32,536 bases of DNA, from positions 1 through 32,536 of the IMG/VR virus record IMGVR_UViG_3300038491_000032; one strand, written 5' to 3'. The notes beneath the pieces were generated by a model. That model was not told where the DNA came from and did no database searches. It saw nothing but the letters and a program-made list of their open reading frames with translations. Source of the DNA: a virus. Shown here piece after piece: positions 10,563 to 27,128 of the stretch. The position numbers were made by a program, and so were the translations under genes. How positions within the stretch are numbered: the first letter of the stretch is position 1; each line of letters starts with the position of its first letter.

Positions 10563-10563
10563 C

Positions 10564-10668
10564 GCTGTATGTATATATATAACACCAATCGGCTGTAGCC
10601 CTTGGTACGACTAGGATTTCTTGGTTCAAAAGTGACAATTTTTTAAAAAAATGCACATTTTTACACCA
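10564..10668. repeat. Long inverted repeat, left copy (IR-L)
   Basis: This 105-base segment matches the reverse complement of 27024-27128 at 91 positions with no gaps. Conserved blocks are 10564-10588 (25 bases, starts GCTGTATGTATATATATAAC), 10597-10607 (AGCCCTTGGTA), 10617-10637 (21 bases, starts TTTCTTGGTTCAAAAGTGAC) and 10646-10668 (23 bases, starts AAAAAATGCACATTTTTACA). The mismatches fall in the spacers between these blocks. A dyad ACCAA (10584-10588) / TTGGT (10602-10606) surrounds GGCTGTAGCC. It is noncoding. Confidence 0.95.
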
Positions 10669-10674
10669 TTTTTT

Positions 10675-10720
10675 AGACCTATTTAGGGGGTTTTTCAACC
10701 TCTTTTTTAGGTCTTTTTTT
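10675..10720 (+). terminator. Strong intrinsic terminator after the GIY-YIG gene and IR-L
   Basis: Outer arms AGACCTA (10675-10681) and TAGGTCT (10708-10714) are perfectly complementary. Inner arms GGGGTT (10687-10692) and AACCTC (10697-10702) add a second stem. A T-run follows to 10720. It separates the spanin/GIY-YIG unit from the early plus-strand genes. Confidence 0.85.
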
Positions 10721-10774
10721 CGTGCGTGTAAGTCTTACTATTCTTCTTTTATTTTAAAATAATTTAACAAATAT

Positions 10775-10805
10775 TTTTTTAAGTCACAAAAAAAACTATC
10801 TTTGC
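10775..10805 (+). promoter_or_regulatory. Bacteroidota-type promoter before the helicase operon
   Basis: TATCTTTGC (10797-10805) is a very good match to the Bacteroidota -7 element. A T-run at 10774-10780 lies at the -33 position but TTG is not exact. The first downstream ATG is at 10854. No other promoter is visible before the helicase. Confidence 0.8.
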
Positions 10806-10853
10806 AAAAACAAAACAGTTAGATTTTAACTCGTTAAATAATAAACAAGATAT

Positions 10854-11000
10854 ATGAAATTTAAAACAGAATTATTATTAGTGTTAGTTTACATTCTTAT
10901 AATAGGAATTGTAATAAGTTCCGGAGTGTTGAATATTGTTTCGGCAATTCTATTAGCAATAGGATTTAAAGAGGTTATTTGTATTTATAGAAAATCGTAA
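10854..11000 (+). CDS. Small membrane protein before the helicase
   Basis: The frame runs from ATG at 10854 to TAA at 10998-11000 and encodes 48 residues. After MKFKTE come two hydrophobic stretches: LLLVLVYILIIGIVI and VLNIVSAILLAIGF. A basic end (ICIYRKS) follows. It is the first gene after the promoter at 10797 and lies 17 bases before the helicase start, so it is an early gene. Small early membrane proteins of phages often modify the host envelope or exclude other phages; its function here is unknown. Confidence 0.65.
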   Translation: MKFKTELLLVLVYILIIGIVISSGVLNIVSAILLAIGFKEVICIYRKS

Positions 11001-11017
11001 GAAACAGGAGTAGGCGT

Positions 11018-13327
11018 ATGAAGATAGTAAAGTATAAAGGAAAATATTTAACAAAAGAAATAGTAGAAGATTGTTTTATAGGAGGGCAACATACAATGGT
11101 AGATAAAAACGTTACAGGTAATGGTTTTACTTTTAACTTCTTAAAGATTGCCCCTCGTATGGGAAAATTTAACATAATCATTGCCCCTAACACAAAGGTT
11201 GTAATGGGTAAGCAAGATAACTATATTGCTAATAAAGGCAATAAATTGATTACTAGCTTTATATACGGAGGTGACGGGAGTGATAGACTTGATTTGTATG
11301 GTAGCACGCAGGTTACAATGATTGTTACAGATAGTTTTTATAACCATATAGAAACTTTTAAAACATTTGCGCATAAGATTGATAAGATAATGATTGATGA
11401 AAGCCACAGTTCTTTAATCCAATCATCATTCAGAGAGAAGTTAGTTAAGTTCAAGGAGTTGATTGACGTTAATTTTCCCGATACGGCACGAGTATCAGTC
11501 ACCGCTACGCCAATGCTTTTTCAAAAAGTAGATATAAAACTTTTAGGCGATTCAATAGAACAAAGAGATATATTTGTTTCAGAGAATCAAGAAGATAGCA
11601 TAAAGAGGGCGTTAGACTTATTAGAAGCCGGGGAAAAGGTTTTGGTTGCGCTGCAAGATTCGATAGTAATAAAGAGATTTATTAAGAATGGTGTATTAGA
11701 TGCCAATATAAAAATAGGTGAATCACTATTAGCACGTATAATGGAAATGACAAAATTTGTAAACAATGAAGATAGTAATTTAACTATAATATCATCCGCA
11801 GGTTTTGAGGGTTTTGATTTAGAAGTTGATACTGATGTTAATGTATTTATTTTTGAAGATAGAACGCAGGACTACACAACTTTTTACCCGCAAAATATTG
11901 TGCAAATAATCGGTAGGCCAAGGCAGGGGACGAAGCGAATAGAGTGGTTTAGAAGAGGTGCAGAGGGTTATTTAATGAAAAGTATTAAGGAAATGCAACG
12001 CATTGCTGACAATGAGAATATACCTTTAAAAACAAAATTTAAAGACCCTCGTTACAGTTTTATACCTCGTTTTTTTGATAGAGAGTTTGATGAGTTAGGT
12101 TTAACTGAATCACTTGTAATTGATGAGGTGAAGTACAATTTAGAAAAAGAAATGAATGACGGCAACATAAAGAGTTATATACAAATGTATTATGACTTCT
12201 TTAAGGTTAGAGGATTTACACTAAAAATTATGGATAACGGTAGGCAGGTAATAAAATCCCGGAAACCATCCCCATCACAATCAAGGGCAAACACATTAAC
12301 AAACCACAACGAAATTATGGAACTAAACCCATTTAAAGACACCCAATGCGATTTAAGGTCGCATAAACTAACCCCTAACGGAATGGTTAGAAAAACATTA
12401 AAAGACTTTTTAAAAACTTATGAGGAATATCTAGTGAGAGCCTTTTTTGTTGTAGATGGTAGTATCTTGGATGATGATTTTACACCTGCCGAATGGGATA
12501 ACTATTTGGTGGTAAATAGAGCGTTGAGGGTTTTATCTATTTTACGCAATGAAGATGAGATTGATGCTGCTGTAGATTATATAATAAAAGAATCTTTAAA
12601 ATGGAAAAAAGCAACCTCAACTCGCAGAGAGCAAAAAGGGGCGGAATACCAAGAATGGGTAATAAATCTAAAAAGGAATACAAAGACAAACTACATTTTA
12701 TTGCTTATGGCAGTAGGGCAAAAGAATTTTCAAATACCTCCAAAAATTGTGGGGAGTAGAGATTATAATATATTCACACAAGTATCAATTGATTTAGTGC
12801 AGGCTGTTATGGAGGAGATAGGTGAGTATGACTTTAATGAGGTAGATATTAACACTTGCAATATTAGGATTTTGTATGCCGCTTGCGGATTAGAGCCACC
12901 TAAAGACATATATGGAGATAATAAAAAGAATAAAAAGAAAATTAATTCCTTAATTAATCGCTCTAGCTTAGAGTATGCTGAATCTAAAAAGTTAGACGCA
13001 TCATCATATAAAAAAAATATTATAAGAGATTACAAAAAATACAACATTCATAGGGATGTTATAGATTTTATTATGAGTAACTTTTGGGAACGAACTAACG
13101 ATAGTATGTTTGAGTACTGTAGCAAGGTTGAGCAAGAAGTTTTAAATAAGCTGCAACACGAGTTATTGAACTTAAAAGGAGATAGAGATTTTAAAATGAT
13201 ACGCAGACACGATAGTATAATTACTTTAGGCAATATGCGTGGGTTGGATGATGTTGTAAGGAACTTCACTTTTAAAGACCAAAAGGGTTGGTTCGATGAA
13301 GATTTTGTTTTTCAAGAGTTGGAATAA
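11018..13327 (+). CDS. Superfamily 2 DNA helicase, probable replication protein
   Basis: In this 769-residue protein the N-terminal third carries helicase motifs. Motif II reads IDESH (D127-H130), motif III VTATP (161-165), motif V-like SSAGFEGFDL (259-268) and motif VI QIIGRPRQG (296-304), with the Arg residues expected to contact ATP. Motif I would be TGNGFT at 33-38, where the usual Lys is Phe; PRMGKF at 46-51 is an alternative but off-pattern. The C-terminal half (about 400-769) has no recognised domain and may hold DNA-binding or initiator functions. It is the only replication enzyme in the genome apart from recombination proteins, so it probably opens or remodels DNA for host replication proteins. 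ATPase activity is uncertain because of motif I. Confidence 0.85.
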   Translation: MKIVKYKGKYLTKEIVEDCFIGGQHTMVDKNVTGNGFTFNFLKIAPRMGKFNIIIAPNTKVVMGKQDNYIANKGNKLITSFIYGGDGSDRLDLYGSTQVTMIVTDSFYNHIETFKTFAHKIDKIMIDESHSSLIQSSFREKLVKFKELIDVNFPDTARVSVTATPMLFQKVDIKLLGDSIEQRDIFVSENQEDSIKRALDLLEAGEKVLVALQDSIVIKRFIKNGVLDANIKIGESLLARIMEMTKFVNNEDSNLTIISSAGFEGFDLEVDTDVNVFIFEDRTQDYTTFYPQNIVQIIGRPRQGTKRIEWFRRGAEGYLMKSIKEMQRIADNENIPLKTKFKDPRYSFIPRFFDREFDELGLTESLVIDEVKYNLEKEMNDGNIKSYIQMYYDFFKVRGFTLKIMDNGRQVIKSRKPSPSQSRANTLTNHNEIMELNPFKDTQCDLRSHKLTPNGMVRKTLKDFLKTYEEYLVRAFFVVDGSILDDDFTPAEWDNYLVVNRALRVLSILRNEDEIDAAVDYIIKESLKWKKATSTRREQKGAEYQEWVINLKRNTKTNYILLLMAVGQKNFQIPPKIVGSRDYNIFTQVSIDLVQAVMEEIGEYDFNEVDINTCNIRILYAACGLEPPKDIYGDNKKNKKKINSLINRSSLEYAESKKLDASSYKKNIIRDYKKYNIHRDVIDFIMSNFWERTNDSMFEYCSKVEQEVLNKLQHELLNLKGDRDFKMIRRHDSIITLGNMRGLDDVVRNFTFKDQKGWFDEDFVFQELE

Positions 13328-13331
13328 AAAA

Positions 13332-13362
13332 TTGCACAACTAATAAATTTTATTATATTTGC
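13332..13362 (+). promoter_or_regulatory. Bacteroidota-type promoter
   Basis: TTG at 13332-13334, a 19-base spacer and TATATTTGC at 13354-13362 match the consensus exactly. It begins five bases after the helicase stop and serves the gene at 13384. Confidence 0.88.
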
Positions 13363-13383
13363 ATTAAATTTAAAAATAAAGAT

Positions 13384-13605
13384 ATGTTAAGTAAGGCAGA
13401 AAGGGATTTAATACCCGAAAAAAAAGAAAAGGTAATAGCAGCGTTTAATAGAACTCAACTAAGGTTGATGGAAACAGTTATAGACAATAAGGATACCACC
13501 ATTGCAAGAGAGTTGGGTTACACTGTTGCCTTTGTTGGAAACACTATATCAGAGTACTTAGAGGATAAGATGGAAGCAGTAAATAGAAGAGTAAACGCAA
13601 AATAA
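13384..13605 (+). CDS. Small helical protein, possible DNA-binding
   Basis: This 73-residue protein is basic and helical. The segment NKDTTIARELGYTVAFVGNTISEYLED (about 35-61) reads like a helix-turn-helix: a helix ending ARELG, a turn, then a second helix. That suggests a small regulator such as an early transcription factor, but the match is by eye only. The N-terminal part (LIPEKKEKVIAAFNRTQLRL) is a charged helix. It has its own promoter at 13354 directly after the helicase gene. Confidence 0.7.
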   Translation: MLSKAERDLIPEKKEKVIAAFNRTQLRLMETVIDNKDTTIARELGYTVAFVGNTISEYLEDKMEAVNRRVNAK

Positions 13606-13651
13606 TTTAAAAATAATTCTAAAAAAGTTTTTTTAATCTAATAATCCTTTA

Positions 13652-13680
13652 TATATTTGCATCAACAATAACAAAAACAA
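13652..13680 (+). promoter_or_regulatory. Promoter and leader shared with the minus-strand gene at 9653
   Basis: TATATTTGC (13652-13660) is a good -7 element. The 29 bases 13652-13680 are identical to the -7 element and leader of the divergently placed gene at 9653. The -33 position holds a T-run without a clear TTG. Confidence 0.8.
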
Positions 13681-13685
13681 GAATT

Positions 13686-13874
13686 ATGAGCAACAAAGAA
13701 AAATTTTTAAAAGCATCAAATAGTTTAAAAGAAAAAGCATTAGCTAGAAATGATTTTGAAACTTATGCAGGTTTGGCAGAGTTAGAAACCCTAATGTATG
13801 AGGTGGATTTAGAATCTTATAAAGAGGGTTCTAATAAAACAAAAGAGATTTTAAGAAAAGTAATGAAAATATAA
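13686..13874 (+). CDS. Small helical early protein
   Basis: This 62-residue protein starts MSNKEKFLKASNSLKEKALA and is charged and helical throughout, with an acidic middle (YAGLAELETLMYEVDLESYKEG) and basic end. No domain is recognised. It has its own promoter and a leader copied from another early gene, and its stop overlaps the next ATG (TAATG), so it heads a string of small early genes. Confidence 0.72.
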   Translation: MSNKEKFLKASNSLKEKALARNDFETYAGLAELETLMYEVDLESYKEGSNKTKEILRKVMKI

Positions 13875-13990
13875 TGAGTAACGATACCTACAAGCAAACA
13901 ATCCAATATTTCCACGAGAGGTGCGAAGCATTGCAGAACAAGATAGTAGAATTAGAAACAGAAAATAAACAATTAAGAAATGAACAATAA
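13874..13990 (+). CDS. Leucine-zipper-like micro-protein, 38 residues
   Basis: The ATG at 13874 overlaps the previous stop and the TAA at 13988-13990 overlaps the next start at 13980. This chain of overlaps is typical of real phage operons. The product ends in a heptad-like helix (ALQNKIVELETENKQLRNEQ), so it probably dimerises as a coiled coil. A protein this small could be an inhibitor or adaptor of a host protein; no target can be named. Confidence 0.6.
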   Translation: MSNDTYKQTIQYFHERCEALQNKIVELETENKQLRNEQ

Positions 13991-14249
13991 GCAAAAACAA
14001 ATCAGAAATTTTGAAGCAGTTACAGAGTTAAGAAAAGAATTAGATAATATACACTATTATTTATTTGATAAAAACTCGCAAACACATTCAGTGAATAAGA
14101 ATTTCGATGCACAAAGGGTTGGCGCAGTAGATAGGGTTGCTAAGAAATATAAGATAACTTTTGAATTTTTACGTAAGGTTACAGATTTAGACCCACTATG
14201 TAGGGAACAGAATAGGGACGAATCATCAACTAAGGAGTTTGCCCGTTAG
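13980..14249 (+). CDS. Hypothetical early protein
   Basis: This 89-residue protein is basic and helical, with the segments RNFEAVTELRKELDNIHYYL and RVGAVDRVAKKYKITFEFLRKV. The second could be a helix-turn-helix-like element, but that is weak. No known domain is visible. It overlaps the 38-residue coiled-coil gene by 11 bases and is followed after 33 bases by a DUF3310-like gene. Confidence 0.68.
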   Translation: MNNKQKQIRNFEAVTELRKELDNIHYYLFDKNSQTHSVNKNFDAQRVGAVDRVAKKYKITFEFLRKVTDLDPLCREQNRDESSTKEFAR

Positions 14250-14282
14250 GCAATTCAAATATTAAATAATAATTTTTAAATA

Positions 14283-14582
14283 ATGAATACAAGAGATAAG
14301 ATGGCAGAAATGGAAGAAGAAGCAAGAGACAAGAGAATGAATATAATTGCACAGAATGGCAACGAGGGGCTTAATTACTACACACCTGCCCACTATGACA
14401 ACTCAGAGGGTTCTTTATATAAGATAGCTTTATTGCGTGGATGGAATCCCTATCTGTTCGATATTGTGAAACGTTTGGAGCGTTCGGAAAAAAAAGGCGA
14501 ATTTGTTACAGATTTGAAAAAATCAAAAAAAGTTATAGATTTGTGGTTAAATGAAAATAATAAACATTTTAAATTAAAATAG
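14283..14582 (+). CDS. DUF3310-like nucleotide/kinase-associated phage protein
   Basis: In this 99-residue protein the second half, YYTPAHYDN then SLYKIALLRGWNPYLFDIVKRLERSEKKGEFVTDLKKSKKVIDLWLNE, resembles DUF3310. That family usually reads PxHY, then a helix with KYxxRxxKK, then DLxKAxxYLDxL. The family is common in phages, its function is unclear, and its members are often near nucleotide-metabolism or recombination genes. The N-terminal acidic helix (RDKMAEMEEEARDKRM) is an extension. The family link is moderate. Confidence 0.65.
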   Translation: MNTRDKMAEMEEEARDKRMNIIAQNGNEGLNYYTPAHYDNSEGSLYKIALLRGWNPYLFDIVKRLERSEKKGEFVTDLKKSKKVIDLWLNENNKHFKLK

Positions 14583-14714
14583 ATGGAAGTAGAAGTGCAA
14601 AAAGTTAGTAAAGATAGGTTTAATCTAGTTGTAAACGGAACAGTAGTCCTGCAAGCAATTGAGAGAAGTGAGGTAAGATATATAATCCAAGAGTTAGACA
14701 ATAAAATTAGTTAA
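14583..14714 (+). CDS. Small hypothetical protein, 43 residues
   Basis: The ATG at 14583 follows the preceding stop directly, and the TAA at 14712-14714 is one base before the ERF gene start. The product (MEVEVQKVSKDRFNLVVNGT, then VLQAIERSEVRYIIQELDNKIS) reads as two strands and a helix. Tight packing between two genes of the same direction supports coding. Function is unknown. Confidence 0.6.
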   Translation: MEVEVQKVSKDRFNLVVNGTVVLQAIERSEVRYIIQELDNKIS

Positions 14715-14715
14715 G

Positions 14716-15267
14716 ATGAATACATTAGAAAAATTAGCAGCAATACAAGTAGAATTAAAAGCACCGAAAAACCAATACAATGCTTTCGGTAAATATAAGT
14801 ACAGAAACGCAGAGGGCATCGTTGAAGCCTTAAAACCATTGCAGGTAAAGTATAAAGTCAGCTTTTCCTCATCAGACGAGATAGTATCAATAGGAAATAT
14901 TATTTACATAGATACTACTGCTATTATGGTTGATTGTGAAACTAACGAAACAGTTGAGCGTAAGGGGCAAGCTATTATAGATTTCGATGCAAAAGGTATG
15001 CAGATGCCACAAAGAACAGGAGCAGCGAGTTCTTACAGTAAAAAGTATGCTTACGGTAACTTATTGTTAATTGATGACACTAAAGATAGTGATGCAGTTA
15101 ATGAACACGATAAGACAGCAACAACATCACTACCAACATTAAATAAAAATAGTGAAGCATATAAAAAGGCTGCTGACTACATTAAAAAGGGAGGTTCTAT
15201 TGCCAAGGTTGAGTTGAAATATACTTTAACAAAAGAGGTAAAAGAATTATTAAATACCCTAAAGTAA
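14716..15267 (+). CDS. erf: ERF-family single-strand annealing protein
   Basis: This 183-residue protein has the ERF core: KLAAIQVELKAPKNQYNAFGKYKYRNAEGI near the start (the NxFxxYKYR pattern), a beta-rich middle, and QRTGAASSYSKKYAYGNLLLIDD (about 98-120), the usual end of the core. ERF proteins anneal complementary single strands and act with an exonuclease in phage recombination and recombination-dependent replication. The C-terminal part has a Thr/Asn-rich linker and a small helical end (YIKKGGSIAKVELKYTLTKEV). An exonuclease lies 1.9 kb downstream and an SSB-like gene directly follows, completing a recombination set. Confidence 0.88.
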   Translation: MNTLEKLAAIQVELKAPKNQYNAFGKYKYRNAEGIVEALKPLQVKYKVSFSSSDEIVSIGNIIYIDTTAIMVDCETNETVERKGQAIIDFDAKGMQMPQRTGAASSYSKKYAYGNLLLIDDTKDSDAVNEHDKTATTSLPTLNKNSEAYKKAADYIKKGGSIAKVELKYTLTKEVKELLNTLK

Positions 15268-15281
15268 GAGATAAAAAGAGT

Positions 15282-15290
15282 TATATTTAC
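15282..15290 (+). promoter_or_regulatory. Probable -7 promoter element before the SSB-like gene
   Basis: TATATTTAC at 15282-15290 fits TAnnTTTG except for the last G and precedes the ATG at 15316 by 25 bases. No clear -33 TTG is visible. With the terminator at 15648-15694 it would make the SSB-like gene an independent unit. Confidence 0.55.
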
Positions 15291-15315
15291 ATTAAATTAA
15301 ATTAAATTATAAGAT

Positions 15316-15636
15316 ATGGAGATTACAGGATTAATTAAGGTAATAGGCGAAACGCAGACAGTAGGTTCTAACAACTTTCAAAAACGTGAATTAGTTGTAA
15401 CAACTGAAGATAGGTATCCGCAGGATATACTAATCGAGTTTGCCAAAGACAATTGCGAAAAGCTAAATACTTATAAGGTTGGCGAGAGAGTAAACGTAAG
15501 CATTAATTTAAGAGGTAGGGAATGGATTAACCCCGAGGGTGTTGCAAGATACTTCAACTCTATTCAAGGTTGGAGGATTCAAAAAGCAGAGTTAGCTGAT
15601 TCACCAAAAGCGGAGGTAGAAGATTTACCTTTTTAA
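15316..15636 (+). CDS. SSB-like protein (DUF3127 type)
   Basis: This 106-residue protein has an OB-fold pattern: MEITGLIKVIGETQTVGSNNFQKRELVV, EDRYPQDILIEFAKDNCEKL, YKVGERVNVSINLRGREW and a final NSIQGWRIQK. DUF3127 proteins with this pattern replace SSB in many Bacteroidota phages. The C-terminus ends in EVEDLPF, an acidic tip with a terminal Phe as in classical SSB tails that recruit replication and repair proteins. It binds single-stranded DNA in replication and recombination, inferred from the family. It has its own candidate promoter and terminator, which would allow high expression. Confidence 0.87.
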   Translation: MEITGLIKVIGETQTVGSNNFQKRELVVTTEDRYPQDILIEFAKDNCEKLNTYKVGERVNVSINLRGREWINPEGVARYFNSIQGWRIQKAELADSPKAEVEDLPF

Positions 15637-15647
15637 TAACTAAATCA

Positions 15648-15694
15648 AACATCATTTGCAAAAACTTGGGGGAGGGGCGCAAATGGTGTTTTTT
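15648..15694 (+). terminator. Intrinsic terminator with G-rich loop
   Basis: AACATCATTTGC (15648-15659) pairs with GCAAATGGTGTT (15679-15690) over 12 positions with one G-U pair, followed by T residues to 15694. The loop contains GGGGGAGGGG (15668-15677), a rare G-run in this genome. It lies 11 bases after the SSB-like stop. Confidence 0.8.
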
Positions 15695-15701
15695 ACTTTT
15701 T

Positions 15702-16181
15702 ATGACATTTAAAGAACGTATTTTATTAGAAGAGTTGAGGGTTTTGAGCTTCTTTAACAACATTGAAAATTGCAGTATTTTTGATATGGTTAATGATAGT
15801 TACAAACCTTTTGATGCTTTAGTATTTAAGGATAAAGGAAAGCCTACAGAGGTTAGAATGATTGTTGAAGCTAAGGTTCGAGGGTTTAAAAGCGATAAGT
15901 ATAAAGGCGGTTTATTGCTCGAAAAAAAGAAGCGAGATGCCATCTTAAATGAATTAAAGGAGTTTAGAGCAAGGGGGAAAAATAAGACCTATAAAGCATA
16001 CTATTTAGTTTGCTGCGATGACAAAGATATGTTGTTTAATTTAGAGAGTGATTTTGGCAGCATTATCTATATGAATTGCCCGAAAGCAACAGCAAGCAAC
16101 GGAAACAACGAGATGATTAAAAAGGAATGTTATATGATAGATTTATCTAAGTCTGTAAAAACTATTAAGAATGAATATTGA
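15702..16181 (+). CDS. PD-(D/E)XK nuclease, resolvase-like
   Basis: The ATG at 15702 is preferred because an upstream GTG-type start at 15666 would lie inside the terminator hairpin. The product has 159 residues. The nuclease core is visible: PFDALVF with D38, then RMIVEAKVR with E56 and K58, then a Lys-rich helix (YKGGLLLEKKKRDAILNEL). Proteins like this act as small phage endonucleases or Holliday-junction resolvases, processing branched DNA before packaging. The exact substrate is unknown. Its end overlaps the sigma-factor start by 11 bases. Confidence 0.75.
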   Translation: MTFKERILLEELRVLSFFNNIENCSIFDMVNDSYKPFDALVFKDKGKPTEVRMIVEAKVRGFKSDKYKGGLLLEKKKRDAILNELKEFRARGKNKTYKAYYLVCCDDKDMLFNLESDFGSIIYMNCPKATASNGNNEMIKKECYMIDLSKSVKTIKNEY

Positions 16182-16701
16182 TTTTTTAAGTATGCTAGCC
16201 AAGTACCACGACACTTGGATTTCACACGCAATTTCTTTAGGTGCTAAAAAATCTTTCGCAGAAGATGTTGTTCAAAATACCTATTTAAAGCTGCATAAGT
16301 ACGCCAACTATCATAAGGTTATTGCAGTAAATGGTGAGCCAAATTATGGTTATGTGTATTTAACTATTAGAAGCGAGGTGATGAACCACTACAACAAAAA
16401 GAAGCGAGAAGCAAAAGTTGTTAGCTATGATTTCACTTTTACAGAAGATGAGCCTAATATGGAAAAACACGAAAAGAACCACGAGTTATTCCTAAAGACT
16501 GAACAAATATTAGACAGTTTGGATTGGTACAGTGCAAGCCTATTTAGAATGTACAGAGATACGGGAAAATCTTACAGAGCCATTGGGCGGGAAACGGGTA
16601 TTTGTTATGTATCTATTCATAATACGATAAATCTTGTAAAAGATGCTTTAAAGGAAGAGTTAAGCGATTGGTATAATAAAAACATAAGAGATGACGATTA
16701 A
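16171..16701 (+). CDS. ECF-like sigma factor
   Basis: This 176-residue protein looks like a minimal two-domain sigma-70 factor. The first part has AEDVVQNTYLKLHKY (about 30-44), the core-binding region 2 pattern, followed by YGYVYLTIRSEVMNHYNKKKRE. The C-terminal part has a region-4 helix-turn-helix: YRDTGKSYRAIGRETGICYVSIHNTINLVKDAL. Such proteins direct RNA polymerase to phage-specific promoters and in phages usually control middle or late genes. It overlaps the gene before by 11 bases and the gene after by 11 bases. The promoter it recognises is unknown; the conserved blocks of the long inverted repeats are candidates. Confidence 0.82.
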   Translation: MNIDFLSMLAKYHDTWISHAISLGAKKSFAEDVVQNTYLKLHKYANYHKVIAVNGEPNYGYVYLTIRSEVMNHYNKKKREAKVVSYDFTFTEDEPNMEKHEKNHELFLKTEQILDSLDWYSASLFRMYRDTGKSYRAIGRETGICYVSIHNTINLVKDALKEELSDWYNKNIRDDD

Positions 16702-17143
16702 GGAAATAAAAAAAAGGATTAAAGACTACACAGGGGATAAAAGGAGTTTAGTCTATAGAAGTTTAAAAGAAGAGTTGAAGATTGCAGAAAGTCAGCAAGA
16801 TGGGTTAGGTGATAAGGTTGAAAAGATTACAAAAGCAACGGGAATTAAAAAAGTTGTTGATACAGTTGCAAAAGCTTTAGATGTTGATTGCGGTTGTGAT
16901 GAGCGTAAAGAGAAGTTAAACAGCTATTCAAGAAACAAAGTAGTTGATTGCCCAACGCAGGAGGAATACATTTATTTAGATGACTTCTTTAAAACCTATA
17001 AAGGTAAGGTAAGCGTAGAGCAGCAGAAAGAGTTGCTAACAATCTACAACAGAATCTTTAAACGAAATAAACAGATGACAAGTTGCAACCTATGCTTTAA
17101 GCCTGTTATTAACAATTTAGAAACAATATACAAAAACTATTAA
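16691..17143 (+). CDS. Cys-containing hypothetical phage protein
   Basis: This 150-residue protein has three recognisable parts: a basic N-terminus (MTIKEIKKRIKDYTGDKRS), a central DKVEKITKATGIKKVVD followed by DCGCDERKEKLN, and a C-terminal helical part with SCNLCFKPV. The CGC and CxxC pairs could bind a metal ion together. The DCGCDKRKxxLN pattern recurs in Bacteroidota phage proteins to my memory, usually near terminase genes. Function is unknown. It overlaps the sigma-factor gene by 11 bases and lies directly before the exonuclease. Confidence 0.72.
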   Translation: MTIKEIKKRIKDYTGDKRSLVYRSLKEELKIAESQQDGLGDKVEKITKATGIKKVVDTVAKALDVDCGCDERKEKLNSYSRNKVVDCPTQEEYIYLDDFFKTYKGKVSVEQQKELLTIYNRIFKRNKQMTSCNLCFKPVINNLETIYKNY

Positions 17144-17144
17144 A

Positions 17145-17921
17145 ATGAGATTACTAAACAATATAGAATACAACAAAGATGAATTGATAAAGAAGATGTA
17201 TGATGACTCTTTTTATTATGGATTTTTAGGACAGCACGCTTTAAGTAGTAGTAGCTGCAAACATTTATTAAAAGGGGAATTAGATTACCATAAATCATTA
17301 ACTCAAACACAGCAAAAGATACAAGCTTTTAGAGACGGTGGGTTAATTCATTTAGCAGTGTTAGAACCCGACAAGTTTAATGCGTTGCACGTGGTTAGCG
17401 GAACTAAAGCGGGCAAATCATTTAAAGATGCAGTTGTGGAGTATGGATATGATAATGTATTCACCTCATCAGAAATGGAAAAAGCACAAAGAGTGTCAGA
17501 GAAGTTATTTGATTGTAAAGATATTGCCAACATAATTAATGGTTGTCAAAAAGAGATACCTGCAATAGCAAATATAGGCGGCGTACCGTTTAGGGGTAAA
17601 GCTGATTTATTAGATGGGTTTACAGTTTTAGATTTAAAGACTACGGCAGATTTAAGGAATTTTGAAAGTAGTGCAAGAAATTTTAACTACGATATACAAG
17701 TGGCAATCTATTTAGAGTTGTTTGATGCTATTGATTTTAAATTTATCGCAATTGATAAAAAGACTTTAGATATTGGGTTTTATGAGGTTAGTGAAGATTT
17801 TATAAATACGGGTAAAGCTAAGTTAAATAAGTGTATTACGACATTCAACAACTATAGAGCGAATAAAGAAGAGTTTAGCAAAATTAATACAAAAGATTTA
17901 TATGTCAAGGGAAAGCTATAA
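17145..17921 (+). CDS. RecE/PDDEXK-type exonuclease
   Basis: This 258-residue enzyme fits the exonuclease group of RecE and Bacteroidota phage PDDEXK_1 proteins that resect double-stranded ends for annealing. The motifs are GGLIHLAVLEP with H69, then FRGKADLLDGFTVLDLKTT with D154, D163 and K165 as the expected metal-binding and catalytic residues, then NYDIQVAIYLELF, the Gln/Tyr motif. Length is normal for a stand-alone domain. Together with the ERF annealing protein and the SSB-like protein it gives a phage recombination system. It overlaps the next gene by 20 bases. Confidence 0.87.
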   Translation: MRLLNNIEYNKDELIKKMYDDSFYYGFLGQHALSSSSCKHLLKGELDYHKSLTQTQQKIQAFRDGGLIHLAVLEPDKFNALHVVSGTKAGKSFKDAVVEYGYDNVFTSSEMEKAQRVSEKLFDCKDIANIINGCQKEIPAIANIGGVPFRGKADLLDGFTVLDLKTTADLRNFESSARNFNYDIQVAIYLELFDAIDFKFIAIDKKTLDIGFYEVSEDFINTGKAKLNKCITTFNNYRANKEEFSKINTKDLYVKGKL

Positions 17922-18189
17922 AAGAGATAGGTTGTTTGCATTTTGCGATGCGTTTAGAGATTTTTACGAATATATGTTTCATCACAACGACCACATATCG
18001 CTGTATTTATATGGGCTAATGCTGCAAGATGATATTGATATGTTTGTTGAGGTTGAAAATTACGCTTATGCACACGGCTACTCTTTAGCATTGAAATTAT
18101 TAAAAAGAAATATAGATAGCGGGCGGTGGCAGGATTCAGAAGATTTTGCTGCCGACTTTATAAAAATAGATATATCCTCATTAACTTAA
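17902..18189 (+). CDS. Hypothetical protein before the terminase genes
   Basis: This 95-residue protein is rich in Phe, Tyr and acidic residues: FAFCDAFRDFYEYMFHHNDH, LYLYGLMLQDDIDMFVEVENYAYAHGYSLALKLL. It appears fully helical, has no signal peptide and is not recognised. The start overlaps the exonuclease gene by 20 bases. The unusual aromatic content might reflect a protein-binding surface, for example an inhibitor of a host enzyme, but nothing supports a target. Confidence 0.68.
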   Translation: MSRESYKRDRLFAFCDAFRDFYEYMFHHNDHISLYLYGLMLQDDIDMFVEVENYAYAHGYSLALKLLKRNIDSGRWQDSEDFAADFIKIDISSLT

Positions 18190-18239
18190 TGGGGGTTTCT
18201 TGTTTATATAGTCAATTAGTCAGCTAAATAAAAACTAAA

Positions 18240-19788: not shown

Positions 19789-19825
19789 AACAATATAACC
19801 TCTTTAATGTTTAAAAATAAAAAGG

Positions 19826-20461: not shown

Positions 20462-20544
20462 GTATGCACTTATGCTTTACACATTTAGCCTATTTGGCAG
20501 ATAAGGCAGAATATGATGCAGCACAAATAAAAAAGAAATTTTAA
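20293..20544 (+). CDS. Tail assembly chaperone gpT-like domain, expressed by -1 frameshift
   Basis: The frame has no ATG or good ribosome site at its start and lies 156 codons into the zero-frame gene, so it is best read as the C-terminal extension of a gpGT fusion and not as a separate gene. Its 83 residues include SKWNSHQELVALANGDLTKVREVTKL and THLAYLADKAEYDAAQIKKK. That is the W, LAxGDxxKxxEVTK and coiled helix pattern of the T domain in Bacteroidota phages. In lambda the T part binds the major tail protein while the G part binds the tape measure. The same roles are inferred here. Confidence 0.8.
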   Translation: MEFNERITESYPEIFRKADGDGLSSSNQFSSKWNSHQELVALANGDLTKVREVTKLSMHLCFTHLAYLADKAEYDAAQIKKKF

Positions 20545-20545
20545 G

Positions 20546-21001
20546 ATGAGTAATTTTATAAAAGTAGTTAAATCAATAAAAGGGGAATTGGAATCGAGTC
20601 CATTTATAAACACCATTAGCTATGGTAGTCTATTTGATGTTGATTTGAAGAAGCAAACAATATTTCCTTTAGGGCATTTATCAGTAGATAACGTACAATA
20701 TGGGGAGCAAGTAATTACCTACACTTTTAGCATTTTATGTATGGATTTAGTAGATATTAATAAAGATAGTAATGTGGATGAGGTTATGGGAAATGATAAT
20801 ACAATGTATATTTGGAACACTCAGCAAGCAGTAATAACTAAACTATTAAACACTTTAAAGAATGGTGATATATTAGAAGACGGATTCCAACTGTTAGGAA
20901 ACCCAAACTTAGAACCATTTAAAGAGAGGTTTGGAAACTTGTTAGCAGGTTGGGCTGTAACTTTTGAAATTGAAGTAGCTAACACTATTGACCTATGCTA
21001 A
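20546..21001 (+). CDS. Tail terminator/completion protein candidate
   Basis: This 151-residue protein has a mixed alpha/beta pattern: VVKSIKGELESSPFINTISYG, SLFDVDLKKQTIFPLGHLSV, YTFSILCMDLVDINKDS and ERFGNLLAGWAVTFEIEVANTIDLC. The pairing of IFPLxHxxV and ILCMDxxD is, to my memory, typical of a tail-terminator-like family in Bacteroidota phages. It would cap the tail tube or join it to the head. The order after the chaperone genes and before an HK97 gp10-like gene supports this. The seven-base overlap with the next gene indicates coupled translation. Confidence 0.65.
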   Translation: MSNFIKVVKSIKGELESSPFINTISYGSLFDVDLKKQTIFPLGHLSVDNVQYGEQVITYTFSILCMDLVDINKDSNVDEVMGNDNTMYIWNTQQAVITKLLNTLKNGDILEDGFQLLGNPNLEPFKERFGNLLAGWAVTFEIEVANTIDLC

Positions 21002-21495
21002 GCAACTTAGAAAAAGCTTTAAATAAAGAAGCTAAAAATGTTGTAACGCAAGCGAGAGCAAATCTAACTAGAAAAGATAAGAATGTTACAAGCGAATTAT
21101 ATAAAAGTTTAGATTATAAAATTGACACCAACAATGATAAAGCTGTTATTGAATTTTTAATGGCTGAACACGGAGAGTATCAAGATAAAGGAGTTAGTGG
21201 TATTTTAAAAAAGTTCCAAACACCATACAGTTTTAAGCCTAATAAATTTCCTAATATGAAAAGAATTGAGCAATGGGTTAAAGCTAGAGGGTTAAAGTTT
21301 AGAGATTCAAAAGGGAAGTTTAAAAAAGGTGGAATTAAGACACTAACATATTTAATTGCTCGCAGTATTCATAGGAAAGGAATAAAGCCAAGCCTATTTT
21401 TTACAAAGCCTTATGAGAGGTTGATGGTTAAGCTTGATGATGTTATATTAGACGCACTTATACTAGATATTGAACAAGGAATAATAAAAGAATAA
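20995..21495 (+). CDS. HK97 gp10-like head-tail joining/tail completion protein
   Basis: The order of parts in this 166-residue protein matches gp10-like proteins. An N-terminal helix (LEKALNKEAKNVVTQARANL) comes first, then LYKSLDYKI and a strand with AVIEFLMAEHGEYQDKGV (the GxYxxxG surface loop). A basic region (FKPNKFPNMKRIEQWVKARGLK) and a C-terminal helix with SLFFTKPYERLM close it. Proteins of this type complete the neck between head and tail. It overlaps the previous gene by seven bases. The family assignment is by pattern and position. Confidence 0.7.
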   Translation: MLSNLEKALNKEAKNVVTQARANLTRKDKNVTSELYKSLDYKIDTNNDKAVIEFLMAEHGEYQDKGVSGILKKFQTPYSFKPNKFPNMKRIEQWVKARGLKFRDSKGKFKKGGIKTLTYLIARSIHRKGIKPSLFFTKPYERLMVKLDDVILDALILDIEQGIIKE

Positions 21496-21497
21496 TT

Positions 21498-22607
21498 ATG
21501 ATGAATACGAGAAGTCCATATTTTGTGACTATAAACGAAAGTAATTTAGAATCAAGTGTATTGAGATTGTACATCTACAAGGGGACTAAAGTAACTGATA
21601 GAGGTGACGTGCAGTTCGTGCTTAATTCAACAGCAGTAAGCAATATCATAACTTTTGAGATTAGTGAGCTTGTTGATGATTATGTTACTAATGAGTTTAA
21701 CGGAGATTATGCAACTGAGCCATTATGGGTAGAATACACCATTCAGAACACTATTAATGGAAGTGAGCAAGCTGTTAGTGGTTTTATAATTAACCAAGCT
21801 GTTAGTGGTTATTCTTTATTTGAAGAGGGTGCAAATAAGCTAATAGAACAATCTTTATTGATTAATAATAATGTTATAGTAAAGTATGATGATGATGCTT
21901 TAAACATACCTATAAACGTAAATAAGACCAATTCTGTAAGTATGTTATATAGAAGTGAAGAGGTTGCAACAGAAAATTATACAAATACTGATGAATCTGA
22001 TTTAAGTATAAAGTATTTAAGTAATGCGGGAGTTGATGCTAACAGTTATAAGGATTATGTTATTAAGTTGGGTGATGATTTTGAGGATTCTCAATGTTTG
22101 AGAGATTTTGAAAGGGAGTACCCAATATTTCCTATAGATAAAATTATAATTGATGGTGATGATGGCGTGCGAGTTGTTAAGGTTAGAGATAACGGAGAGT
22201 GTTTATATGAAGTTAAGAAACTTACTTTTATCAATAAGAATGGAGTGTTGCAGGATATTTGGTGCTTTCAATCAAGTGTAAAAAAGTTAGCCTTAAAAGA
22301 GGAAAAGTACAACGCTAATATTGTAAGCAATGGTAGCTTTAAAACTTGCAACCACCAATCAAAAATACTTACAAAGACGGGACAAAGAAGCGTAACACTA
22401 AACACGGGGTTTGTTCCCGGAAGTTATAACGCTGTAATTGAGGAACTTATGCTATCAAGGCAAGTTTGGCTAACAGAAGATAATGTAGTTAGACCTGTAA
22501 ATGTGGCTGATAGTAGCTTTACTTTTAAAAATAAAATTGATGATAGATTGATTAATTACAAATTCAACATCAACTATGCTACCCAAGCAGTAAACAATGT
22601 GAGATAG
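21498..22607 (+). CDS. Tail structural protein, distal tail region
   Basis: This 369-residue protein starts MNTRSPYFVTINESNLESSVLRLYIYKG (an alternative Met precedes by one codon), the opening of a conserved Bacteroidota phage tail family. The body is beta-rich, and a Cys-containing loop (SQCLRDFEREYPIFP, GECLYEVKKLTF) lies near the middle. No enzymatic motif is visible. It lies two bases after the gp10-like gene and directly before another large tail protein. A tip or distal-tail role is likely because both precede the tape measure; exact placement is unknown. Confidence 0.65.
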   Translation: MMNTRSPYFVTINESNLESSVLRLYIYKGTKVTDRGDVQFVLNSTAVSNIITFEISELVDDYVTNEFNGDYATEPLWVEYTIQNTINGSEQAVSGFIINQAVSGYSLFEEGANKLIEQSLLINNNVIVKYDDDALNIPINVNKTNSVSMLYRSEEVATENYTNTDESDLSIKYLSNAGVDANSYKDYVIKLGDDFEDSQCLRDFEREYPIFPIDKIIIDGDDGVRVVKVRDNGECLYEVKKLTFINKNGVLQDIWCFQSSVKKLALKEEKYNANIVSNGSFKTCNHQSKILTKTGQRSVTLNTGFVPGSYNAVIEELMLSRQVWLTEDNVVRPVNVADSSFTFKNKIDDRLINYKFNINYATQAVNNVR

Positions 22608-24698
22608 ATGAAAGTACAATTATATATTAATGGGATTGAAGCGGAATTATTTAGAGATGAGGTAATTTCGCTAACATCTTCTATACAAAAAATAAAGGAC
22701 ATAGGTAAAATATTTACCGATTTTAGCAAAGGTTTAACACTTCCTGCAAGTCCATCAACAAATAAAATATTTAAACACTTTCATAGGTCGGACATTTCTA
22801 ACAGTTATGATGCAAGGTTTAGAACTGATGCCGTAATTAAATTAAACGGGGTTGATTTTAAGGAGGGTACTATTAAATTGGATAATGTAGTTTTAAAAGA
22901 CAATAAGCCTTTTAGCTACAATATTACATTTTTTGGTAAAACTGTTTTATTAAAAGATTTATTTGGTGAAGATGAGTTAAGTGACTTGCCTTTGTCTGTG
23001 TTTAACCATAATTACACGTCTAACTTTATAAAAGCTGCTCTAACTAATGGCTATGTTGTAAATGAAGTAAACCAAACCTTAAACCAAAACACGGGGGATG
23101 ATGCAGGTGATTTAATATACCCATTCATAAGTTCTGATAAAAAATATTACTATTCTACAGATATTGATACAAATAACAAACCACCTAACAACATTTATAA
23201 AGCTGATGAGGTTTATGATGAAAACTATGGTATTGACTACAAAAGTTTAAAGCCTGCTATAAGGGTGCTGCGCATAATTGAAGCTATAGAAAATAAATAT
23301 AATTTAGAATTTAGTACAGATTTCTTTAACTATTCTAATGAAGCTATAAAGGATTTAATGTTGTGGTTGCATCGCGATAAGGGTACGATATTTGGCGGCA
23401 AGATTGATAAGTCGGTTAAATTTAACCTTAATGAGTTTGCTATTGATGGGGCAGATGAGGTGCGGGAAGCTGATAAAAACCTTTTAAAAACTTTAGCTGA
23501 TAAAGACTTTCTAATAACTTATGATGTTTCATCCAACGCCTATAAGGGTAATAAATTTATAGTTATTGATGATTTAACACAAGAAACTTTAGCCGAGATA
23601 GACAAAGTAAACGGAGGTGGTACTATTAATGTGATTATAAAAAGGGATGCAGCACAGCCTTTAATTAAGCCTATTTTATATGTTGAGGGTGAAGAGGTTA
23701 ATGTGATTACAGCTACTGTAACAATTAAAGAAGGGACGTTCAACTTTAACGCGGATGGTATTACGCTAAGTCCATCAAACATTACAACACGTACATTCAC
23801 TTTTGATAATGAAACAAACACGGCGTCTCTTGCAAAAGAATTAACTGTAAATAGTCAGATGCCAAAAATGAAAGTAATGGATTTTTTAACTACTATTTTT
23901 AAATTGTTTAATCTAACGGCATACTATGAAGATAGCACTGTAATAGTAAAAACATTGGATGATTACTATTCTGATAGAAATGAGTATGATATAACGCAAT
24001 ATGTAGATGCATCAACAACTAAGGTTGAGAAGTCAATCATTTATTCAAACATAGAATTTAAGTTTAAAGACCCTAAAACATTTTTAACATTAAATAGAAG
24101 TAGAATAATTGGTGCAGATTATGGTAGTCTATTGTATGAAGCAGAAGATGGAACGTTTGATGGCTCTGCTTATAAGATTGAGGTAGGTTTTGAAAAGATG
24201 TTATTCGAGCGAATGAGCGACCAATTTACAAGAGATTTAACAACTATGGGTTGGGGATGGATGGCTAACGAAAATGAAGAGCCTACAATCGGTGCGCCTT
24301 TATTGTTTTATGCAGTTAAAGAAGATGCAAGTAATGGGGTGATGTTTAATAAAAGTGATATTTCTGACCTACAAACATTAACTAGTTATATAAGACCATC
24401 CAACTCTACAGGGGACAGATTACACACATTGAATTTTGGTAGTGAAATTGATGAGTTTGATTTACAAATCAATGCGAATAGTTTATATAAAAATTATTAT
24501 AATAATACCATAACAGAAATATATGAAAAGAACGCGAGAGTTTTAAATATTACAGCTTATTTGCCTTTTAGTCTATTGTATAAATACAAATTAAATGATA
24601 CAATGATACTCAGAGGGGTTAAATATAAGATAGATACTATAAAAACAAATCTAACTAATGGAAAGAGTGAATTAAAACTATTTACTCAGTTCTATTAA
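22608..24698 (+). CDS. Large tail hub/tip protein candidate
   Basis: This 696-residue protein starts MKVQLYINGIEAELFRDE and has IGKIFTDFSKGLTLPASPSTN, then KIFKHFHRSDI, an N-terminal signature I associate with a conserved tail protein of Bacteroidota phages. The rest is beta-rich with repeated strand-turn patterns (VVLKDNKPFSYNITFFGKTV, TFNFNADGITLSPSNITTRTF, NITAYLPFSLLYKYKLNDTM). Length and order suggest the hub that opens the tail tip or carries fibres. There is no visible peptidase or glycosidase motif. The gene starts right at the previous stop, so both are translated together. Confidence 0.65.
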   Translation: MKVQLYINGIEAELFRDEVISLTSSIQKIKDIGKIFTDFSKGLTLPASPSTNKIFKHFHRSDISNSYDARFRTDAVIKLNGVDFKEGTIKLDNVVLKDNKPFSYNITFFGKTVLLKDLFGEDELSDLPLSVFNHNYTSNFIKAALTNGYVVNEVNQTLNQNTGDDAGDLIYPFISSDKKYYYSTDIDTNNKPPNNIYKADEVYDENYGIDYKSLKPAIRVLRIIEAIENKYNLEFSTDFFNYSNEAIKDLMLWLHRDKGTIFGGKIDKSVKFNLNEFAIDGADEVREADKNLLKTLADKDFLITYDVSSNAYKGNKFIVIDDLTQETLAEIDKVNGGGTINVIIKRDAAQPLIKPILYVEGEEVNVITATVTIKEGTFNFNADGITLSPSNITTRTFTFDNETNTASLAKELTVNSQMPKMKVMDFLTTIFKLFNLTAYYEDSTVIVKTLDDYYSDRNEYDITQYVDASTTKVEKSIIYSNIEFKFKDPKTFLTLNRSRIIGADYGSLLYEAEDGTFDGSAYKIEVGFEKMLFERMSDQFTRDLTTMGWGWMANENEEPTIGAPLLFYAVKEDASNGVMFNKSDISDLQTLTSYIRPSNSTGDRLHTLNFGSEIDEFDLQINANSLYKNYYNNTITEIYEKNARVLNITAYLPFSLLYKYKLNDTMILRGVKYKIDTIKTNLTNGKSELKLFTQFY

Positions 24699-24736
24699 GT
24701 AACGCAATTATATTATATTGTTTATAAATTAAAAAA

Positions 24737-24886
24737 ATGATTTTAGAATTGTTGCATATAGGTAAGTTTTACGGGGAATCAGAAATAATTGAGATAGCTA
24801 AAGGTAAGTATAAACTGCCTTTAACTATTTCAGAGGGATTGGAACAAATTAAACGCTTAAAAAAAATGAAGAATGAAAGAGGTTAA
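24737..24886 (+). CDS. Small hypothetical protein before the tape measure
   Basis: The ATG at 24737 follows an A-rich leader; TAA at 24884-24886 overlaps the tape-measure start by 14 bases. The 49 residues read MILELLHIGKFYGESEIIEI, AKGKYKLPLTISEGLEQIKR and LKKMKNERG, a small mixed fold with a basic helix at the end. In the same direction and within the tail operon it is likely to be real. It could be a further tail assembly factor; function is unknown. Confidence 0.6.
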   Translation: MILELLHIGKFYGESEIIEIAKGKYKLPLTISEGLEQIKRLKKMKNERG

Positions 24887-26951
24887 TGTTAAAATTGATA
24901 TCAATACAGGGGATGCTATAAAAGAAATTAAAGGTGTTGAGCAAGCGATTAAAAGCGTTGAAGAGGAATCTGATAAGGCAGGTAAAAATGCAGGTAAAAA
25001 CATTAAAAAAGTAGGTGATACTTCTAAAAAAGCATCCAAGGGGGTTGGTAAAATATCAGCAGCATTTAAAACTTTAGGTGCAACAATGAAAGCGGCGGGT
25101 ATTGGGTTGATAGTAGCGGGAGTACTTGCTCTAACAAAGGCTTTTACCCAAAACCAAAAGATAATGGATAAGGTTAATATTGTTTTCGAAACAATTAGCG
25201 GGGTATTTAATCAAATAGTTACAGCTTTAGTAGATACTTATGATGCAGTAAGCAATGCTACAAATGGTTTTGAATCCATAAAAACTGTAATGAGCAGCCT
25301 ATTAACTGTAGCTGTAACACCTCTAAAACTTGCTTTCTTTGGAATTAAATTAGGAGTACAAGAAGCGCAGCTAGCTTGGGAACAATCATTTTTTGGGGGT
25401 AAAGATGCCGAAACAATGAAGCAGTTACAGTTAGATATAATTGCAACAAAAGAAGCTATCTTTGAAACAGGAGAGGAAGCAATACAAGCGGGCAAAGATT
25501 ATGTAACCAATATAGGTGGCGTAATTACTGAGTTAAGTGAAATAGCTACAACTGCAACCGGTAAATTATCAGAGGTTAGTGTTAAGGCTGCAAACGAGCA
25601 AGCCAAAAACTTGGTAAACATTCGTAATGCGGCTCAATTAGCTGCAGCGGAGCAAGCAAAGTTGGCCGCTAAGTATGAAACAGAAGCGGAACTATTAAGG
25701 CAGATTAGGGATGATACTACAAAGAGTTTTAAAGAGCGTAGCAAAGCATCTAAAGATTTAGAAAAAGTTTTAAAGAAGCAAAATAAAGCACTTAAAGCGC
25801 AGGCAGATTTACAAGTAGAAGCAGCGAAACAAGAGTTGGCTAAAAACAAAACCATTGAGAATCAAGTTGCATTAACAGAAGCACTAACCAATGCACAATC
25901 AGTACAAGCTGATGTAACCGGCAAACTATCTGAACAGAAAACAAGTGATGTTGCATTAACTAAAGAGCAAACGGATGCGTACAATGCCCAATCAGAATCA
26001 CTAAATCAAAATAGTATTGAAGCTAAAAGGTTTAATGCGGAACTGATAGAAGATAAGGTTGAAAGTCTAGAAGCTTTAAGAGTTGTATTTGAAGAGGAAA
26101 AGCAAATAGAATTAGAGCGACTGCAAGGTATTATTGATAGAGCTAATGCAGATACACAAGCTAAGATTGATGCCGAAACCGCTTTAAGGGAAAAGAAAGA
26201 GGAATTTAGACAACAAGATAAGGAACTTGAAGAACAAACATCAGAGGCTAAATCAGAAGCAGAACTCAAAAAGACAGAAGATGAAGAGATAGGTTTTGAA
26301 TTAGAGCGTGAACGTTTAAACGAAAGACGTAACACCATTTTAAATGATGAAACACTAAGTGCCGAAAAAAGAATGGCTCTACTTAAAACAGTAAATGATG
26401 CTGAAAAGAAACTAGATAGGGAGCGTTTAGAAAGTAAGCGTCAAACATTGAACGGAATACTTACTTTATTTGGAGCAGAAACGGCAGCAGGTAAAGCGGC
26501 GTTAGTAGCCAAGCAATTATTAAATGCACAGGAACTTTTACAAGATATTAAAAAGATAAATTGGAAAGCGACTAAAACAGTGGCGGAAGCTAGTATGGAT
26601 AATGCAGCGGGTTTAGCTAAAACAGCGGCTGTTGGATTTCCTCAAAATATACCTTTATTGATTGGTTATGCAGCACAAGCGGTGGGGATATTTAGTGCAA
26701 TTAAAGGTGCAGTTAGTAGTGCAAAAGCTACCGGGGCAAATGTATCAGCACCATCAGCACCTCCGTCAGTAGCAGCACCAAAAGCTACTGCATCAAGTTT
26801 TAATATAGTTGGGCAAAGTGAAACAAATCAATTAGCAGATGCCATTGGGGGACAAACACAAAAACCAATTAAAACTTATGTATTGAGTAGTGATGTTGAA
26901 ACTGCAACCGCATTTGATAGAAGTGTTGAAAGTACGAGTTCAATCGGTTAA
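24873..26951 (+). CDS. Tape-measure protein
   Basis: This 692-residue protein has the usual tape-measure order. An N-terminal helix rich in Gly/Lys (GKNIKKVGDTSKKASKGVGK) comes first, then hydrophobic segments (about 75-90, TMKAAGIGLIVAGVLALTKAF, and 130-160), then a long charged coiled coil from about 250 to 560 with Glu/Lys/Gln/Ala heptads. An Ala/Gly/Pro-rich tail (ATGANVSAPSAPPSVAAP) follows. It sets tail length and helps DNA entry; at about 1.5 angstrom per residue, tail length would be near 100 nm. No lytic domain is visible. It is the last gene before the right inverted repeat. Confidence 0.92.
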   Translation: MKEVNVKIDINTGDAIKEIKGVEQAIKSVEEESDKAGKNAGKNIKKVGDTSKKASKGVGKISAAFKTLGATMKAAGIGLIVAGVLALTKAFTQNQKIMDKVNIVFETISGVFNQIVTALVDTYDAVSNATNGFESIKTVMSSLLTVAVTPLKLAFFGIKLGVQEAQLAWEQSFFGGKDAETMKQLQLDIIATKEAIFETGEEAIQAGKDYVTNIGGVITELSEIATTATGKLSEVSVKAANEQAKNLVNIRNAAQLAAAEQAKLAAKYETEAELLRQIRDDTTKSFKERSKASKDLEKVLKKQNKALKAQADLQVEAAKQELAKNKTIENQVALTEALTNAQSVQADVTGKLSEQKTSDVALTKEQTDAYNAQSESLNQNSIEAKRFNAELIEDKVESLEALRVVFEEEKQIELERLQGIIDRANADTQAKIDAETALREKKEEFRQQDKELEEQTSEAKSEAELKKTEDEEIGFELERERLNERRNTILNDETLSAEKRMALLKTVNDAEKKLDRERLESKRQTLNGILTLFGAETAAGKAALVAKQLLNAQELLQDIKKINWKATKTVAEASMDNAAGLAKTAAVGFPQNIPLLIGYAAQAVGIFSAIKGAVSSAKATGANVSAPSAPPSVAAPKATASSFNIVGQSETNQLADAIGGQTQKPIKTYVLSSDVETATAFDRSVESTSSIG

Positions 26952-26965
26952 ATTAACTTAAATAG

Positions 26966-26998
26966 TTGAGGTTGTTTATCTGTAAAAATATACCTCAA
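26966..26998 (+). terminator. Hairpin after the tape-measure gene
   Basis: TTGAGGT (26966-26972) and ACCTCAA (26992-26998) are perfect complements around a 19-base A/T-rich loop. No T-run follows, so termination may be weak. It lies 25 bases before IR-R on the block-4 side, just as the terminator at 10675 lies on the block-4 side of IR-L. Confidence 0.5.
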
Positions 26999-27023
26999 TT
27001 AGCCGAATGTAAACGCTTAAAAT

Positions 27024-27128
27024 TGGTGTAAAAATGTGCATTTTTTCGAAAATATGTCACTTTTGAACCAAGAAAACTCAATGATACCAAGGGCTGCAGC
27101 GAGTTGGTGTTATATATATACATACAGC
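27024..27128. repeat. Long inverted repeat, right copy (IR-R)
   Basis: This 105-base segment is the inverted counterpart of 10564-10668, with the same four blocks: 27024-27046, 27055-27075, 27085-27095 and 27104-27128. The central dyad is ACCAA (27086-27090) and TTGGT (27104-27108) around GCTGCAGC, a perfect palindrome where IR-L has GGCTGTAGCC. It ends 41 bases before the protease start at 27170 and could carry the late promoter. CACTTTTG (27058-27065) in block 3 resembles a -7 element. Confidence 0.95.

Follow-up and report, generated by a model that had tools for sequence, protein, structure and literature searches.

The question raised by this locus is why a phage should carry the same noncoding element of 105 bp twice, in inverted orientation and on opposite sides of its genome. 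The stretch of DNA analysed here (the window) is the complete record IMGVR_UViG_3300038491_000032 of 32,536 bp, which closes into a circle of 32,459 bp through a 77-bp exact end repeat and has a GC content of 32.7%. The virus is an uncultivated one of Bacteroidota bacteria and, from its recognised genes, a tailed phage. The pair is genuine, unusual and well defined; it probably offers two docking sites for protein, which are perhaps two origins of replication.

Copy 1 and the reverse complement of copy 2 (positions in Table 1) are identical at 91 of 105 positions (87%) without a gap; the match, given in a preliminary description of this DNA, was recomputed and holds. A looser alignment extends the pair to 113 bp at 86% identity (10564-10676 / 27016-27128). 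The pair was recovered by self-BLAST with an E value of 6.5e-30, and comparison of copy 1 with the rest of the genome resulted in an inverted score of 141, far above that of shuffled controls (27.8 ± 2.2, maximum 32). Perfect runs of 25, 4, 11, 21, 4 and 23 bp make up the alignment, and the four conserved blocks of 25, 11, 21 and 23 bases described earlier are correct, with the 14 mismatches (element positions 26-28, 33, 45, 46, 48, 50, 51, 53, 75, 76, 81 and 82) in the spacers. These spacers vary between the copies with no insertions or deletions, while the blocks are conserved. The clustering of the mismatches (p 0.027, or p 0.011 when the ends are held fixed) is modest evidence of selection, with two sequences alone being compared. 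No single block occurs elsewhere in the window beyond chance, even when up to 3 mismatches are allowed. Short TTGGT repeats are present exactly three times in copy 1 and four times in copy 2, forming the densest such cluster in the window for a motif that was picked post hoc, and AT-rich DNA of low stability adjoins each copy, but on different sides of the two. The copy centres are separated by arcs of 16,460 and 15,999 bp, and these figures, like the size of the circle, confirm those given before. Such an equal split has a probability of p = 0.014 under uniform placement, or 1/45 over gene junctions, in a test made post hoc; it is probably not essential to the element and is given little weight, because the parallels found in relatives (P12024S and G015, below) are unevenly spaced.

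The two copies occupy different functional regions of the genome. Copy 1 begins 2 bp past the last base (10562) of a gene resembling GIY-YIG homing endonucleases and is followed, in order, by a terminator-like hairpin (predicted fold over 10669-10740, -18.4 kcal/mol), a promoter-like sequence of the TAnnTTTG type, which is the consensus of Bacteroidota-type promoters, and the gene for a ResIII-type helicase of 769 aa, a candidate replication protein. Copy 2 lies 72 bp past the stop of the tape-measure-like gene and ends 45 bp ahead of the likely ATG of the head protease gene (27173). With this ATG as the protease start, both copies are intergenic by reading of the open reading frames, in agreement with their earlier description as noncoding; only the longer TTG-start version of the protease frame (27104) would overlap copy 2, by 25 bp. 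The gap between the tape-measure and protease genes is 218–221 bp in this phage, compared with -4 to 43 bp in most relatives with a readable junction and 59–89 bp in a few. In five IMG/VR contigs (L093, L110, L150, L153 and L162) the gap is 197–215 bp and is filled by a different noncoding insertion of ~150 bp, unrelated to copy 2, which is 77–91% alike among these contigs, across groups, and absent in close siblings. The insertion in L110 and others was considered as a possible counterpart of copy 2; the 23-kb contig of L110 has no second copy, but it shows no replication module either, so that this absence carries no weight.

The reading that we favour, tentatively and by analogy, is that the 105-bp copies are two matched regions, acting in cis, to which a DNA-binding protein encoded by the phage binds, most probably a replication initiator or organiser, and that they may work like oriL and oriR of phage SPP1. 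The primary origin-type site would be copy 1, heading the replication module, with copy 2, within the late gene cluster, as a second site at which the bound protein could provide an alternative start point or block a replication fork. The annealing protein, exonuclease and single-strand DNA-binding protein (SSB) of the phage would then switch theta replication to the formation of concatemers. In this scheme we infer protein binding, origin activity, fork blocking and the identity of the binder alike. The proposal is supported by the gapless pair itself with its conserved blocks, variable spacers and TTGGT repeats, by the occurrence of its blocks at two places alone, by the position of copy 1 at the start of the replication module, by repeat arrays next to primase genes in the relatives G001/G002, G006 and G015, and by the two-place noncoding elements of G015 and P12024S/L; Erf, exonuclease and SSB are all encoded, as the SPP1 switch model requires. 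The preliminary description had suggested protein-binding blocks at fixed spacing, with phage-sigma promoters, replication origins and recombination targets as options. Binding blocks with origins among the options fit best, given the conserved blocks, the variable spacers free of indels and the two-place elements in relatives, whereas the promoter and recombination options fared poorly.

Related phages, in which the earlier description had proposed to seek the 105-bp element and its block pattern, yielded no homologue, only partial parallels of unrelated sequence. The exact blocks have no counterpart in IMG/VR apart from a single chance 20-mer with unrelated flanks, and matches to two-block patterns in IMG/VR and 85,000 genomes fail in their flanks (at most 54/105 positions). 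BLAST of the element against phages and plasmids and nhmmer over 2.2 Mb of compared loci found no homologue, and ~790 sampled Bacteroidota genomes (~395 per sample, the samples being without a positive control) gave no match. The element is thus an orphan sequence among all collections searched, which may lack the records nearest to the window. The nearest named relatives of the phage by terminase (terL) are the Nonlabens (Persicivirga) phages P12024L and P12024S, at 50% aa identity, and many IMG/VR contigs are similar in terminase and major capsid protein (50–57%). The gene order sigma, exonuclease, terminase, tail, tape measure, protease, capsid, portal and lysis is largely common to the phage and its relatives. 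Parallels to the pair were sought in 20 near-complete IMG/VR relatives together with P12024S/L.

Both P12024 phages contain an inverted noncoding pair in which TGTAATAAT occurs exactly four times per genome, two per site, and each site has a single AT-rich block. A VapE/PriCT-type primase gene precedes one site; the other is upstream of the head protease, at the same border as copy 2, and the best partner score is 53 genome-wide compared with 33.1 ± 3.1 for shuffles. In P12024S the arcs between the sites are ~16.2 and 19.5 kb. Between P12024S and P12024L, the primase-side region is nearly identical as far as the gene start from which their gene content differs; what few changes it has fall together in the stretch from the AT block to the first repeat. 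In relative G015 (IMGVR_UViG_3300017781_000056), palindromes of the ACTTAGTA type form two arrays (2469-2564 and 25377-25498, holding 5 and 6 of the 13 sites in the genome), one beside a Toprim/DnaB_C-type (primase-helicase) gene and one in the late region, with arcs of ~22.9 and 11.6 kb between them; an inverted pair considered here as a single block proved to be these palindromic arrays. G001 (6999-7183) and G002 (5162-5346) carry an eight-site GTGACAAC array, a probable origin, flanked by a BT4734-type primase gene and by a gene that weakly matches a DnaA C-terminal-like helix-turn-helix, and in G006 a TGTTACA array adjoins a prim-pol/DUF3987 gene. The arrays of G001, G002 and G006 look like single origins beside a replication gene. 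The two-place elements of the relatives are unrelated in sequence to the 105-bp element.

Several observations weigh against the origin-type reading. No initiator or primase is recognised in the window, and PHROGs, Pfam and NCBIfam recognise no gp38-like initiator, helicase loader or DnaB-type helicase among the annotated genes. The only candidate, the 769-aa helicase, is without a characterised relative: none was found in PHROG, NCBIfam, PDB sequences, IMG/VR, phages or sampled Flavobacteriales genomes, and its single-sequence structure model is uninformative (predicted local distance difference test score 34). The element holds no classical iteron array (no 8-mer cluster) and has no sequence homologue by which its conservation could be judged. 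GC skew, named earlier as a possible replication signal with peaks at both copies, tracks gene direction only. In P12024, each copy is also followed by a host-type promoter directed at its own gene, and other relatives likewise carry repeated noncoding pairs resembling promoters or leaders, so the P12024 parallel is not exclusive. Because both of its copies precede such promoters and repeats of the promoter or leader type occur in other relatives, the P12024 pair could be a pair of operators.

Under the main rival explanation, which we consider possible though doubtful, a transcription regulator of the phage would use the copies, in either orientation, as operators or upstream-activator sites, copy 1 for the helicase operon and copy 2 for the head operon. 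Copy 1 is ~130 bp upstream of the TAnnTTTG-type promoter preceding the helicase, but a terminator-like hairpin stands between the two; copy 2 immediately precedes the head operon, but no host-type promoter lies between it and the protease. The phage encodes a sigma-like factor, and the other noncoding repeats, here and in the relatives, are duplicated promoters or leaders. The copies are, however, opposed in orientation relative to their downstream genes, single blocks are absent upstream of other genes, and 105 bp is long for an operator. Two of these observations also disfavour the phage-sigma promoter family raised in the preliminary description, since no block recurs upstream of other genes, the blocks being confined to the two copies, and the copies are oppositely oriented relative to the downstream + strand genes.

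A recent duplication of mobile or hitch-hiking DNA, either resembling a miniature inverted-repeat transposable element (MITE) or linked to the GIY-YIG homing endonuclease, and doing nothing of its own for the phage, is in our judgement an unlikely source of the element. The flanks, read directly, show no target-site duplication and no convincing terminal inverted repeats, the hallmarks of MITEs and insertion sequences, and no further copies exist in the collections searched; the mismatches are clustered, not uniform. Such an origin would agree with the orphan sequence and its fairly sharp borders, with the homing-endonuclease-like gene that stops just short of copy 1, and with a junction that is mostly at most 43 bp in relatives yet holds unrelated insertions in five of them, missing from close siblings. 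An RNA function is improbable. In this case each copy would encode a small structured RNA, or the transcripts would pair in trans, the 3' untranslated region of the early mRNA binding the head mRNA leader. A hairpin follows both copies on the element strand, and the copies are complementary over 91/105 nt on the + strand of the genome, but Rfam covariance models gave no match to the element, its single-sequence folds are no better than shuffles (z -0.3 to -1.0), and a two-sequence consensus fold tested by column shuffles does not reach significance on either strand (p 0.18 and 0.08). Site-specific recombination at the copies, inverting one arc of the genome, is very improbable despite their inverted orientation and their placement at module borders. 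No recombinase was recognised by family search among the annotated genes, in line with what had been noted before, and the spacers differ between the copies, which would block crossover in a tyrosine-type core; neither the identical crossover core nor the recombinase gene of systems of the 2-micron FRT or invertase kind was found, and the 14 mismatches argue against frequent exchange. The recombination target proposed earlier is thus disfavoured.

Table 1. Positions of the two copies and of neighbouring and replication-related features in the window.
Feature	Coordinates	Strand	Basis or context
GIY-YIG homing-endonuclease-like gene	10203..10562	+	Pfam PF01541 E 4e-6; PHROG 7168 homing endonuclease E 7e-6
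Copy 1 of the 105-bp element	10564..10668	+	between GIY-YIG gene and start of replication module; intergenic
Nested stem-loop with T-run, intrinsic-terminator-like	10674..10714	+	terminator scan; directly after copy 1
Bacteroidota-type promoter-like sequence TATCTTTG	10796..10815	+	direct reading of 10563-11017; upstream of helicase gene
769-aa ResIII-type helicase	11018..13327	+	Pfam PF04851 E 1.5e-5; first large gene of replication module
Erf-like single-strand annealing protein	14716..15267	+	PHROG 155 E 5e-35
Single-strand DNA-binding protein (SSB)	15316..15636	+	PHROG 4932 E 2.5e-37
Sigma-70-like factor	16171..16701	+	PHROG 1740 E 2e-11; PF04542 weak, below cut-off
Exonuclease VIII-like recombination exonuclease	17145..17921	+	PHROG 412 E 2e-29
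Tape-measure-like gene	24873..26951	+	size, position, C-terminal similarity to the corresponding gene of relatives; no PHROG match
Copy 2 of the 105-bp element, inverted	27024..27128	-	between tape-measure and head-protease genes
Head maturation protease	27173..27742	+	PHROGs 24921, 3017 and others

The recognised genes of the phage comprise portal, terminase, head protease, endolysin, methyltransferase, ThyX, Erf, SSB, exonuclease and sigma-like factor. The head protease gene (27173-27742) and a second gene at 29505-30107 both match phrog_24921, at positions 10-175 and 220-322 of 349, which suggests a head protease-scaffold protein split in two genes around ~1.8 kb of inserted genes. Tandem paralogous genes at 31111-31641 and 31645-32181 each match phrog_19091. 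The window also contains two other noncoding repeats, an inverted 83-bp pair (9650-9731 / 13607-13689, 75%) containing TAnnTTTG-type promoters and similar leaders, each facing its own gene, and a direct 92-bp repeat (6172-6263 / 7283-7373, 73%) upstream of two minus-strand genes. The latter includes the dyad TATAAGGTGC-GTTTTAAT-GCACTTTATA on the - strand, and its core TGCnTTAAAACGCA recurs, among the loci compared, only in the tape-measure/protease insertion of L093 and L110. Both of these promoter-type repeats keep their orientation relative to the gene that they precede, unlike the 105-bp copies.

Paired origins are well documented in SPP1; to our knowledge none have been described in Bacteroidota phages, in which the control of replication is almost unstudied. 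If the origin-type reading is true, P12024S/L, with their cultured host, would be a tractable system for asking whether a second origin site drives the switch from theta replication to concatemers, and origins in uncultivated phages could be located by the simple signature of the two-place layout. Should that reading fail, the pair would still be a clear regulatory element in need of explanation. The comparative hints give a specific, testable hypothesis, with P12024S/L as the best system for it.

SPP1 is a lytic Bacillus siphophage. Its two origins, oriL and oriR, are organised alike; oriL lies within a replication gene and oriR breaks up the late gene cluster. Bound at oriR, the origin-binding protein is thought to stall the fork and to start the recombination-dependent synthesis of concatemers, in which exonuclease, annealing protein and SSB of the phage take part (PMC6316719, PMC3485210). 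The phage described here resembles SPP1, with its gp38 (G38P)-bound oriL and oriR, in being a lytic siphophage with two distant, similarly organised regions (here the 91/105 inverted pair), placed among the replication genes and in the late cluster, and in encoding its own annealing protein, exonuclease and SSB (PMC6316719, PMC3485210). In SPP1, oriL and oriR are 12–13 kb apart in a 44-kb genome, whereas the present copies, inverted and nearly identical, face each other across the circle. The likeness lies in layout and recombination genes, with no relation in sequence expected and no homologue of gp38, gp39 or gp40 recognised in this phage, and the pair is not filed as a member of the SPP1-like paired origins because initiator, loader and DnaB-type helicase are not recognised. 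G015 shares two noncoding repeat clusters, on the primase-helicase side and in the late region, but these are short palindromic sites of unrelated sequence in arrays of 5 and 6 in place of one 105-bp block. The P12024S/L pair is unrelated and more divergent, consisting of two 9-bp repeats and a 24-bp AT-rich block at variable spacing, with each site facing a host-type promoter. It nevertheless agrees with the present pair in overall gene order, in inversion, in having one site before the head protease and the other in the replication module, and in a distance of ~16 kb on one arc. As a rather long shot, these phages could represent a Bacteroidota siphophage lineage with two inverted, phage-specific origin elements, on the replication side and at the tail/head border, in which the sequence turns over fully while the layout persists; a direction-dependent fork barrier or counter-origin at the second, inverted site would set off the concatemeric switch.

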